DNA from: Pseudomonadota bacterium
GTDB lineage: Bacteria > Pseudomonadota > Gammaproteobacteria > Steroidobacterales > Steroidobacteraceae
Length of the DNA: 44,757 bases
Direction of reading: 5' to 3'
NCBI GenBank assembly: GCA_947453065.1
Contig: CANGFJ010000002.1
Location: 1 to 44,757 of the forward strand
The stretch's first letter is position 1, and every line of letters begins with the position of its first letter. A program made the position numbers and the translations under genes. The notes under the pieces are model-generated. The model did no database searches. It was not told the origin of the DNA and saw only the letters and a program-made list of their open reading frames with translations. Shown here piece after piece: positions 13,217 to 20,322 of this stretch.

Positions 13217-15256
<2,040 letters not shown>

Positions 15257-15354
15257 AAAGACCTCCCCATGATCATCGAGTGATCAGAATTTGTTCTTGG
15301 AACCAGCCGGACTCCCGTGTCCCGGCCTCGGCGTTGGAGCGCTGCCGAATATAG

Positions 15355-16215
15355 TCAGAAAGGCGCGCCGATTGCCAGACGCCAGCCGGACAGATCGCCT
15401 GCGATCCGATACGAAACGCCTAGTGCAGGAAGGGCGATGCCCAGGGCTGTCGGGCGCGGATCCAGGGACATCGAGAAGCCCACTTCTTTCTGGTAGCGAT
15501 CTGCGTCGCGGTGGGTAATGGGGGAGGTGGGGGCCTCGACATACACGTCGAGCAGCAAATAAGGGGCGATGCGCAGGTGCCGGTCACCCAGGTGCGCGGG
15601 TGTCGCGAAATCCCATTGCGCGGCGTTGCGCAGGCGCAGGAACGAGTCTCCGGGTAGCGGACCACGCAAGTCGGCAACGGCCAGGTTCAACTCGTTGAAC
15701 AGCACGTATTCCACCGCGCGGGGCAGCACCGTGCCCTGGCTGTCCGTGCGTGTGCCGGGCCTGCGCCAGGTGCTCCGCACTCCCAGCCCAAACTGCACGG
15801 AATCGGCCGCGTGACCGGAGGCCTTGGTGTAGCCGGCCTTGGCAAAGTGGGTGAGCCACCAGTCCGGTGTCAGCGCATGGTCCTGCTCGATGCCCGGCAC
15901 CAGGCTGACTGATCCGATGCCCTGGGGCAGGTTCAGGTTGATGACATCGCTGCTACGGAAGTCCAGCAGCCCCACTGTGACCGGCAGGGTCAGGCGCCAG
16001 CCTTCGCGCTCGAAGGCGAAGGGCAGGCGGTAGATCTGCAGTGCCCGGCCATTGATCTCGTAGACGCCAGATCCCAGTTCCGACGCGAACGCGTAGCTGG
16101 CAAAGGCCCGGTCTGCGCCGGGCGGCGCAGTCTGTGCCCCGGCCTGGGCACTGCACAGGACGAGGCCCAGGCCCAGTGCCAAAATGGCGCGGGCGGAACC
16201 CGCGCGCTGCTTCAC
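15355..16215 (-). CDS. Uncharacterised secreted / putative outer-membrane beta-barrel protein
   Basis: Signal peptide MKQRAGSARAILALGLGLVLCSAQAGAQ, alternating amphipathic strands, terminal aromatic F; GTG start overlapping the pfp TGA. Confidence 0.65.
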   Translation of the reverse strand: MKQRAGSARAILALGLGLVLCSAQAGAQTAPPGADRAFASYAFASELGSGVYEINGRALQIYRLPFAFEREGWRLTLPVTVGLLDFRSSDVINLNLPQGIGSVSLVPGIEQDHALTPDWWLTHFAKAGYTKASGHAADSVQFGLGVRSTWRRPGTRTDSQGTVLPRAVEYVLFNELNLAVADLRGPLPGDSFLRLRNAAQWDFATPAHLGDRHLRIAPYLLLDVYVEAPTSPITHRDADRYQKEVGFSMSLDPRPTALGIALPALGVSYRIAGDLSGWRLAIGAPF

Positions 16216-17507
16216 ACCGTGAAGCCGGTCTTCAGCTTGCGCCGGACAGACTTGCCTTTGATGCGCACATAGTCGGGCAGGCCATCGACATACGGTGGGT
16301 AGTCCTCACCTGCGATCAGCGGCTCGAGGTAGCGTCGGCAGGCCGCCGTAATGCCAAAGCCATCCGCCGTGATGAAGTTGCGCGGCACGGTCTTCTCGAC
16401 GTTGGCGACCTTGGCCAGGGGCACCGGCTCGATTTTCCAGCGGTAGGGACGCGAGGACTTGCGGATGATGGCCGGCATCACGGCGTTGAGCCCCTGCACG
16501 GCAAACTCCACGGCCGCCTTGCCCACTGCATACGCTTGCTCGACGTCCACCTTCGAGGCGATGTGCCGCGCTGAGCGCTGCAGGTAGTCCGCTACGGCCC
16601 AGTGGTATTTGTAGCCCAGCTCCTCGCGCACCATGTTGGCGACCACCGGACCCACGCCGCCCAGCTGCGCATGGCCGAACGCATCGCGTGTGCCGGCTTC
16701 GGCCAGGAAGCGCCCATCCGGGTACTTGGTGCCTTCCGAGACGATGATGACGCAGTAACCCTGCGTCTCGACACTGTGCTTCACGCGGGCCATGAAGGCC
16801 TGCTTCTCGAACGGGATCTCCGGGAACAGGATGATCTGGGGTGCGTCCCCGGCCTTTTTGCCCGCCAGGCCGCCTGCGGCAGCGATCCAGCCTGCGTGTC
16901 GTCCCATGACCTCGAGCACGAAGATCTTGGTGGAAGTGCGTGCCATCGACGCCACATCCATGGCCGCCTCGCGCGTGGAAACGGCGATGTACTTGGCGAC
17001 CGATCCGAAACCCGGGCAGCAGTCGGTCAGTGGCAGGTCGTTGTCGACGGTCTTGGGGATGCCGACACAGGTGATGGGATAGCCCAATGCCTCGCCGATC
17101 TGGGACACCTTGTGCGCGGTGTCCATGGAGTCGTTGCCACCGTTGTAGAAGAAGTAGCCGATGTTGTGAGCCCTGAAAACCTCGATCAAACGCTCATATT
17201 CGGCCCGGTTCTGTTCCAGGCCCTTGAGCTTGAAGCGTGCGGATCCGAAGGCACCTGCAGGCGTGTGGCGCAATGCGCGGATCGTGGCAGGTGACTCTTG
17301 GCTGACGTCGATGAGGTCTTCCGTGAGTGCGCCGATGATGCCGTGGCGTCCGGCATACACTTTGCCGATCTGGCGACGATATTTGCGTGCCGTCTCGATA
17401 ACGCCAGCCGCTGAAGCGTTGATGACGGCCGTCACGCCGCCCGACTGAGCGTAGAATGCGTTGCGGGGCTGTGCTTTGACGGTAGATTTCTTGACTGGCT
17501 TGGCCAT
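16212..17507 (-). CDS. pfp: 6-phosphofructokinase, pyrophosphate-dependent type
   Basis: FFYNGGNDSMDTAHK (Asp in the GGxDS position) and GIPKTVDNDLPLTDCCPGFGSVAK (Lys in PKTxDND), both PPi-PFK hallmarks. Confidence 0.92.
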   Translation of the reverse strand: MAKPVKKSTVKAQPRNAFYAQSGGVTAVINASAAGVIETARKYRRQIGKVYAGRHGIIGALTEDLIDVSQESPATIRALRHTPAGAFGSARFKLKGLEQNRAEYERLIEVFRAHNIGYFFYNGGNDSMDTAHKVSQIGEALGYPITCVGIPKTVDNDLPLTDCCPGFGSVAKYIAVSTREAAMDVASMARTSTKIFVLEVMGRHAGWIAAAGGLAGKKAGDAPQIILFPEIPFEKQAFMARVKHSVETQGYCVIIVSEGTKYPDGRFLAEAGTRDAFGHAQLGGVGPVVANMVREELGYKYHWAVADYLQRSARHIASKVDVEQAYAVGKAAVEFAVQGLNAVMPAIIRKSSRPYRWKIEPVPLAKVANVEKTVPRNFITADGFGITAACRRYLEPLIAGEDYPPYVDGLPDYVRIKGKSVRRKLKTGFTV

Positions 17508-17620: not shown

Positions 17621-18607
17621 ATGCGCATTGTTCTTCTCGGAGCCCCGGGCTCTGGCAAAGGCACACAATCCCAGCGCCTCGTGCAGCGCTTCGGCATTCC
17701 GCAGGTGTCTACCGGAGACCTGCTGCGTTCAGCAGTGGCCCGTGGCACGCCGCTTGGCCTCGCGGCCAAGGATGCGATGCAGGCCGGCAAACTCGTCGAC
17801 GACTCCATCGTGCTGGGCATGATCCGTGAGCGCATGGGTGATGCCGATACCGCAGGTGGTTTCATTCTCGACGGCTTTCCGCGCAACCTCGCGCAGGCCG
17901 CTGCGCTCGACAAGCTGCTGGGTCAGGTGGGCAAGCCGCTGACCGCCGTGGTGCTGCTGGATGTGGACTACACCGAGTTGACGCGCCGCATTGCCGGTCG
18001 TCGTAGCTGCCAGCAGTGCGGCAGCGTCTACAACATCTACACGATGCCGCTGGGCGAGCAGCCGCGCTGCCAGCAGTGCAGCGACAAGCCGCTGCTGTTC
18101 CAGCGTCCCGACGACAACGAAGCGACTGTGGTCAATCGCCTGCAGGTCTACGAGCAGCAGACCCGTCCGTTGGTGGAGTACTACCGCAAACAGGGCCTGT
18201 TGCGCGTGATCAACGCGCAGGGCGATATCGATGACATCACGCGCCTGCTGGTCGATGCGCTTGCCGTTACGACGGCCAAGCCAGCCCGCAAGAAGAAGGC
18301 CGTGAAAAAGAAAAAGGCTGTCGCTAAAAAGGCAGCCCGGAAAGTCGCGCGCAAGGCGACAAGCAGGCCGGCGCCGAAGCCGGTCACCAAGACGACAAGG
18401 AAATCTGTGAAGAAGAAAGCTGACAAGAAAGTTGCGAAGAAAAAGGCCGCTAAGAAGGCCGCTCGCAAGGTCGCAACCCCGATCGTGAAGAAGCCTGCCA
18501 AGAAGGCCGCCAAGAAGGTTGCCAAGAAGGCCGCCAAGAAGGCCGCCAAGAAGGCTGGCAAAAAGGTAGCCCGCAAGGCCGCCAAAAAGGTGGCCAAGGG
18601 CCGCTGA
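17621..18607 (+). CDS. adk: Adenylate kinase with zinc-type Cys4 LID and a ~110-aa Lys/Ala-rich C-terminal extension
   Basis: MRIVLLGAPGSGKGTQSQRLVQRFGIPQVSTGDLLRSAV, DGFPRNLAQA; LID CQQC...CQQC; tail from about aa 219 to 328. Confidence 0.95.
   Translation: MRIVLLGAPGSGKGTQSQRLVQRFGIPQVSTGDLLRSAVARGTPLGLAAKDAMQAGKLVDDSIVLGMIRERMGDADTAGGFILDGFPRNLAQAAALDKLLGQVGKPLTAVVLLDVDYTELTRRIAGRRSCQQCGSVYNIYTMPLGEQPRCQQCSDKPLLFQRPDDNEATVVNRLQVYEQQTRPLVEYYRKQGLLRVINAQGDIDDITRLLVDALAVTTAKPARKKKAVKKKKAVAKKAARKVARKATSRPAPKPVTKTTRKSVKKKADKKVAKKKAAKKAARKVATPIVKKPAKKAAKKVAKKAAKKAAKKAGKKVARKAAKKVAKGR
18275..18604 (+). other. Low-complexity coding segment for a histone-H1/AlgP-like KKAAKKVAKK tail of Adk
   Basis: Translates AKPARKKKAVKKKKAVAKKAARK...KKPAKKAAKKVAKKAAKKAAKKAGKKVARKAAKKVAKGR. 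Confidence 0.92.
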
Positions 18608-18615
18608 GTCTCCGT

Positions 18616-19716
18616 CTAGAGAGCGGCCAGCAAGGCCTCGCCGACTGCGGCGCGGCGCCAGCCGCTCAACAGGCTGACCTCCCTCTCCCCGCGCGCGAGC
18701 TGTTCCAGCTCGCGTCGCGTGGCGAGGATCTCCGGGCTCAGTCCCAGCGCCAACGCGGCGTCCTTTGCTACCAGTCCGAGTTTCTTCACGCATTCCGTGA
18801 GGACAGGGTCCGGCCGTGCCCGTCCCGGCAGCGGCGGCAGTGACTGTGGCATGCCGGCTTCCTGCACGACCCGCAGGATGTCAGTACCACTGTTGGCGAT
18901 GAATCCCGGCTCCAGTTCCGTGAGTCCCTGCAGGGCCTGCAGATCGCGGGGCACTCGCATGACGATGGCCCTCAGGCCCGCATCCTCCAGGATCCAGGAC
19001 CGTGGCCGGTTCCGGTCCGACGCCCGCCGTTCGCGCCAGGCGGCCAGTTCGCGCGTGAGGCGCTGACGGTCCTCATCCAGTTCGGTGGTGCCCTTCAGGC
19101 GCTCCCAGGCCTTGGCCGGATCCACAAACAGGTTGTCAGCGGCGATCAGCGGCAGCAGCTCTTCCTCCAGCCAGGCCAGGCGTCCCAGCTTGTCCAGCTG
19201 CTCCAGCAGTGCGTCACGCAACGGTGCCAGGTAGCGCACATCATCGACTGCGTAGGTCAGTTGGGCCGCACTCAGCGGACGGCGCGACCAGTCGGTGCGC
19301 GTGTGCGACTTGTCCAGTTCCACGCCCACCAGCCGTCGCACGAGTTCGCCATAGCCCACCTGTGCCGGCAGGCCGGTGAGACCGGCGGCCACCTGGGTAT
19401 CGAAGACGGGACCCACGGCACCGAACAGGGGCCAGAGGACTTCAAGGTCCTGCCGCGCGGCATGCATGATCTTGATGGGCGTCGCGGCGGACAGGGCCGG
19501 ACGCATCAGCGCCAGGTCGGCGTCGCCCAGGGGGTCGACGCACTCGCAGCGCGTCGGGGTCGAGATCTGCAGCAGGCACAGCTGGGCGCGGTAGGTGCGC
19601 TCCCGCAGGAATTCGGTGTCCAGGCCCACATAGGGGGAAGCGGCCATCTCGGCGGCCAGTTCGCGCAGCCGCGTGGCGTGCTGCGGGGAATGGGTGATCG
19701 GTTCGATCGCGTTCAT
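18616..19716 (-). CDS. rnd: Ribonuclease D
   Basis: YVGLDTEFLRERTYRAQLCLLQIST, HAARQDLEVL, FDTQVAAGL, YAVDDVRYLAPL: DEDD exonuclease motifs and HRDC-like C-terminus. Confidence 0.93.
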   Translation of the reverse strand: MNAIEPITHSPQHATRLRELAAEMAASPYVGLDTEFLRERTYRAQLCLLQISTPTRCECVDPLGDADLALMRPALSAATPIKIMHAARQDLEVLWPLFGAVGPVFDTQVAAGLTGLPAQVGYGELVRRLVGVELDKSHTRTDWSRRPLSAAQLTYAVDDVRYLAPLRDALLEQLDKLGRLAWLEEELLPLIAADNLFVDPAKAWERLKGTTELDEDRQRLTRELAAWRERRASDRNRPRSWILEDAGLRAIVMRVPRDLQALQGLTELEPGFIANSGTDILRVVQEAGMPQSLPPLPGRARPDPVLTECVKKLGLVAKDAALALGLSPEILATRRELEQLARGEREVSLLSGWRRAAVGEALLAAL

Positions 19717-19770: not shown

Positions 19771-20322
19771 GTGAGCGACACCCAACGTCCGGCTTTGCTG
19801 CGTTCCCTGCTGCTGTACATCGAGATCGCCCTGCTGAGGCGTGGTCCCGAGGACGCGCCGGCTTCCGTCGGACACCTGGTGTCGATGGTGTCCGCGTACG
19901 CAGGCATCAGTCTGGTGGTCGCCGGGTTCCTGCCCGACGCCAGCGGCGACCCGTTTGGGTTGCTGGCAGTGAGTATCGCCGTGTCGCTGCTATGGTACTG
20001 GGTCGTGCTGCGCCTTGCTCGCAAGCCCAGTCGCTACCTGCAGACCGCGAGCGCGGTTTTTGGTGTGCAGTTCGTGCTCGCCCCGCTGGGCGGACTGCTG
20101 CAGTGGTTCCTGGCCGGCCAGGTACTCACGCCAGAAGCGATGTCACCGGGCGCCGCGCTGGCCGTTGTGGCGATGGCGGTTTGGACAGTGGCCATCATGG
20201 CCCGCATCGTCCGCTCGGCCACCGAGTGGCCCACGACCTCCTGCGTCGCCCTGGTGCTGGCGCACTCGGCGCTCGAAGCGTTGCTGGTGCTCGCCTTGCT
20301 GCCTGACAAAGCAGCCCCCTGA
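19771..20322 (+). CDS. Hypothetical multi-pass membrane protein
   Basis: 183 aa with about four hydrophobic segments; GTG start; co-directional 9 bp upstream of mpl. Confidence 0.65.
   Translation: MSDTQRPALLRSLLLYIEIALLRRGPEDAPASVGHLVSMVSAYAGISLVVAGFLPDASGDPFGLLAVSIAVSLLWYWVVLRLARKPSRYLQTASAVFGVQFVLAPLGGLLQWFLAGQVLTPEAMSPGAALAVVAMAVWTVAIMARIVRSATEWPTTSCVALVLAHSALEALLVLALLPDKAAP

Follow-up and report, generated by a model that had tools for sequence, protein, structure and literature searches.

A proteobacterial adenylate kinase of the zinc-lid type that continues in frame into a histone H1-like tail

The usual view of adenylate kinase (Adk), which returns AMP to the ADP/ATP pool by the reaction 2 ADP <-> ATP + AMP, is that the enzyme diffuses freely and holds adenylates close to equilibrium. 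Basic C-terminal tails are a known module of other bacterial proteins, such as AlgP, PhaF, HupB, and TopA. The KAAK/PAKK tail of HupB is indispensable for nucleoid association (PMC5676037), and the lysine repeats of Streptomyces TopA stabilize the enzyme-DNA complex (PMC7398561). The KPAA repeats of AlgP and PhaF are among the tails that bind DNA or hold proteins there; AlgP is found on polyphosphate (polyP) granules, or on the nucleoid in the absence of polyP kinases, and its tail, similar in composition to the one described here, is needed for granule spacing, while the AlgP-like tail of PhaF is thought to bind DNA and not PHA (PMC9239181). In Escherichia coli, polyP binds lysine-rich disordered regions, and such binders are translation related (PMC12345225). 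No paper describing a tail of this kind on an Adk came up in a literature search, which covered subscription papers thinly. The placement on Adk has, however, a precedent in a curated database, the NCBIfam adenylate kinase model NF010381 (PRK13808; 335 positions), whose cut-off was passed by two genomes of another Pseudomonadota family (f44), with proteins (L060 and L061) that carry a K/A-rich tail of ca. 90 residues in frame on a short-lid Adk. Therefore, the novelty that an earlier note on this DNA had attached to the tail-plus-Adk architecture is limited.

The window studied here is the whole stretch of 44,757 nucleotides that was analyzed. Within it, adk is a single open frame on the forward strand (17621 to 18607) that starts with ATG, encodes 328 amino acids, and has no stop or frameshift between core and tail. 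Residues 1 to 215 (17621 to 18265, forward strand) make up the Adk core, with the P-loop GAPGSGKGT and the NMP and LID domains. Pfam ADK (PF00406) matched residues 5 to 192 (E value of 4e-52; 176.8 bits versus a cut-off of 26.8), ADK_lid (PF05191) residues 127 to 164, and TIGR01351 residues 2 to 213, the last with 236.5 bits, over its curated cut-off of 168. In an alignment of 11 homologues, K13 of the P-loop and the catalytic arginines R36, R88, R123, R162, and R173 were invariant. By its four lid cysteines (C130, C133, C150, and C153; 18008 to 18079, forward strand), which aligned with those of 1zin and 5g3y, this is a complete Adk of the zinc-lid type, with predicted zinc binding, and zinc-lid Adks such as these two were also its nearest solved structures. 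The case is one of a zinc-type lid in a proteobacterial Adk for which Bacillus-type structures are the closest solved. The predicted core was confident (pLDDT around 90) and matched Adk structures with an E value of 3e-25. Only one Adk was found in its own genome, which is 92% complete. The open frame and the family matches confirm the proposal that an Adk runs in frame into a K/A-rich tail; the sizes first given for the two parts (ca. 218 and ca. 110 residues) are corrected slightly here to a core ending near residue 215 and a tail of about 112.

The tail (residues 217 to 328; 18269 to 18604, forward strand) is 46% K+R and 27% A, with one acidic residue (1% D+E) and a net charge of +51. Being long, C-terminal, dominated by K and A, and poor in acidic and hydrophobic residues, it is a histone H1-like tail, and its composition bears out the resemblance to AlgP and H1 tails pointed out before. 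It is nevertheless without the regular KPAA repeats of AlgP proper, having KKAA- or KKVA-like units and 5% proline. When the tails of 31 tailed homologues were pooled, they contained 42% K+R and 2.6% D+E, whereas each of these figures was 13% in the Adk cores of the same proteins, a difference strong enough to show that this composition is not due to chance. The AlphaFold2 model of the tail, of low to moderate confidence, consisted of separate helices between disordered stretches. A search of its own genome with the tail returned only Adk, plus a very weak match to a SET-domain (lysine methyltransferase-like) protein. This protein (L059:991-1713; G000:C74:3157-3867) has a very similar K/A tail at its end and occurs widely in family f1, there with K/R-rich tails. 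It might methylate K/A tails, its own or that of Adk. As a partner of the Adk tail it was rejected, since it is found throughout f1 regardless of the Adk tail and is absent from those genomes of families f5, f9, and f16 that have a tailed Adk.

Within the same genus, the Adk core is extended by a tail of 94 to 112 residues in G001, G002, G004, G006, and G008 as well as in the window (six of the seven orthologues examined), while in G003 the frame ends directly after the core. One genus thus offers natural tail-less (G003) and tailed (G001, G002, and G006) members for direct comparison. Beyond it, tails were found in scattered genera of its own family and in families f4, f5, f9, and f16 of the order; in the order-wide sample, at least 10 of the 40 matched genomes of family f1 had one, and none of the members read in the large families f7 and f10 did. 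Given that five other species of the genus and at least four other families have in-frame tails in independent assemblies, an assembly or frameshift artefact is ruled out, and the stop or frameshift before the tail that the earlier note had named as grounds for abandoning the fusion was not seen in the open frame.

On an Adk tree of 98 cores (96 from the order plus 2 outgroup sequences), 31 were tailed, with tail lengths of 58 to 315 residues (the tails of L090, L128, L131, and L132 are cut by contig ends and that of L141 by the limit of the stretch read, so that their lengths are partial). Tails have been gained or lost repeatedly among these relatives: tail state must have changed at least 11 times on this tree, and well-supported branches make 5 of these changes unavoidable, the exact number being soft in a quick tree with some long branches that does not distinguish gains from losses. 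The window Adk scored 211.8 bits with NF010381, below the curated cut-off of 426, and branches far away from the short-lid Adks; hence, the two kinds of tail are probably independent acquisitions, and the tail probably arose more than once. Across tailed homologues, length and residue order drift while charge and composition stay, as expected of a nonspecific binder. In family f9, the Adks L093 and L096 have tails of ca. 300 residues, largely near-perfect ASKKKA repeats behind a linker.

Part of the window tail is an imperfect 12-base tandem array (18488 to 18598, forward strand; unit AAGAAGGCCGCC, coding for KKAA; 9.2 copies), which scored 117 to 138 in Tandem Repeats Finder at periods of 12, 24, and 36. 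This decayed array suggests a mode of tail growth. Along with the near-perfect repeat runs in L093 and L096 and the patchy tail distribution, it also fits a tail that would be a by-product of slippage in 12-base repeats (KKAA units), of little function and tolerated at the C terminus. The codons argue otherwise. In close pairs compared codon by codon, the tail omega lay between roughly 0 and 0.27, in most cases near 0.1, a range biased downward because the alignment of repeats favors identical residues. In the near-gapless pairs L060/L061 and L004/L005, we counted 7 nonsynonymous versus 28 synonymous single-base codon differences, where the neutral expectation is 2.66:1 (P = 1e-10), and in all pairs, changes involving an acidic residue numbered 2 versus 11.8 expected (P = 3e-4). 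Judged by the 28 silent versus 7 amino acid changes, the protein sequence of the tail is under purifying selection. Since the synonymous excess holds in near-gapless pairs too, acidic residues are avoided, and the same composition has been reached on unrelated short-lid Adks, we regard slippage as an improbable explanation.

The genes around adk had been taken as a hint that a link of the tail to PPi or polyP was worth testing. The divergent neighbor is pfp, for a PPi-dependent phosphofructokinase (16212 to 17507, reverse strand; NF010675, E value of 4e-196), hppA encodes a membrane-bound pyrophosphatase (13217 to 15256, reverse strand; PF03030, E value of 2.7e-269), and the convergent neighbor is rnd, for RNase D (18616 to 19716, reverse strand; TIGR01388, over cut-off), with the tail filling the gap between adk and rnd. 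In relatives, pfp adjoins adk with or without a tail, hppA is kept in both cases, and f1 relatives share the order hppA-pfp-adk-rnd-mpl whether or not their Adk has a tail; beyond f1, this order is kept in part. Because of this identical synteny, a tie between tail and PPi genes was rejected, these genes say nothing specific about the tail, and the hint is not supported. Many relatives with the same neighborhood have no tail, which is therefore dispensable in general. The presence of hppA and pfp beside adk (13217 to 17507) in most relatives compared amounts to a PPi/adenylate cluster that is conserved irrespective of the tail. Two neighboring proteins (15355 to 16215 and 19771 to 20322) gave no match in Pfam. 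In the loci that were compared, the former occurred only in the genus and the latter more widely in family f1.

Leaving gene order aside, the tail might anchor Adk on polyP granules, where a PPK2-type reaction (AMP + polyP -> ADP) followed by that of Adk (2 ADP -> ATP + AMP) would supply ATP locally. The behavior of AlgP and the polyP binding of lysine-rich regions in E. coli are in line with this, PPK1 and two genes for PPK2 are present in its own genome, and PAP plus Adk regenerate ATP from polyP in vitro in Acinetobacter johnsonii (Resnick and Zehnder 2000, as given in a passage of PMC8776046). However, neither PPK1 nor PPK2 was detected in the tailed genomes G011 and G029 (99 and 96% complete, although such assemblies can miss genes), which favors a target present in every cell, and PPK1 was rejected as a correlate of the tail, being equally common with it (21/23 genomes) and without it (25/27). 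Anchoring on polyP thus appears unlikely. PHA granules, which the homologous PhaF tail helps organize, were rejected as a target on gene content, and we give them hardly any probability: PhaC_N was missing from its own genome and from the majority of tailed genus members, PhaC was no commoner with a tail (10/23 genomes) than without one (13/27), and the PhaF tail itself seems to be a DNA binder. Given G011 and G029 without polyP kinases and its own genome without PhaC, neither kind of granule is a required target.

Ribosomes or RNA are another candidate, as basic disordered tails bind rRNA, and the tail would then put Adk where tRNA charging and translation free AMP. The translation-related binders of E. 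coli agree with this, and the neighbor rnd encodes an RNA enzyme, but rnd is also there without a tail, and the sequence holds nothing that separates RNA from DNA binding. We consider this rather unlikely as the main role.

The reading we prefer, with a probability of roughly one-half, is that of an ordinary Adk, the only one detected in its genome, with a nonspecific polyanion-binding tail of the H1/AlgP type that most likely serves as a nucleoid tether. The core would carry out its usual reaction, and the tail, disordered or becoming helical upon binding, would keep some of the cell's Adk on abundant polyanions, with nucleoid DNA and bound RNA as the most likely ones, so that AMP freed there by RNA decay, NAD-dependent ligation, and tRNA charging would be recycled locally. 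DNA ranks first among the putative targets because it is present in every tailed genome, polyP second because of the two genomes without the kinases searched for, and ribosomes would come third. Against a nucleoid tether, known DNA-holding tails are mostly on DNA-acting or granule proteins, and Adk is neither; the same composition is also predicted by ribosome or polyP binding. Thus, of the idea that the tail might tether Adk to a polyanion, the tether stands as the best and a plausible inference by analogy, while the hint of a PPi/polyP role from adjacent genes does not. The 11 or more tail changes, the clear selection, and the tails on distantly related Adks suggest that the position of Adk in the bacterial cell matters. 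More tentatively, bacteria may have repeatedly localized this housekeeping enzyme via a polyanion-binding tail, the adenylate charge being set at the surface of nucleoid, ribosome, or polyP and not evenly in the cytosol.

Compared with known systems, the window Adk shares its core fold, catalytic arginines, and four lid cysteines with canonical zinc-lid Adks (1zin and 5g3y), which, however, have no tail. The Adks of NF010381 are likewise a core with an in-frame K/A-rich C-terminal tail, but they are short-lid enzymes from a different Pseudomonadota family on a distant branch. AlgP and PhaF of Pseudomonas, with known DNA and granule association (PMC9239181), have a similarly long, K/A-rich C-terminal tail, disordered as that of the window Adk may also be, although there it is made of regular proline-rich KPAA repeats on nonenzymatic domains, whereas the window tail sits on an enzyme. 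Finally, actinobacterial TopA and HupB resemble the window Adk in having an H1-like lysine-rich tail C-terminal to a folded domain (PMC7398561, PMC5676037), but their cores act on DNA, while that of Adk does not.
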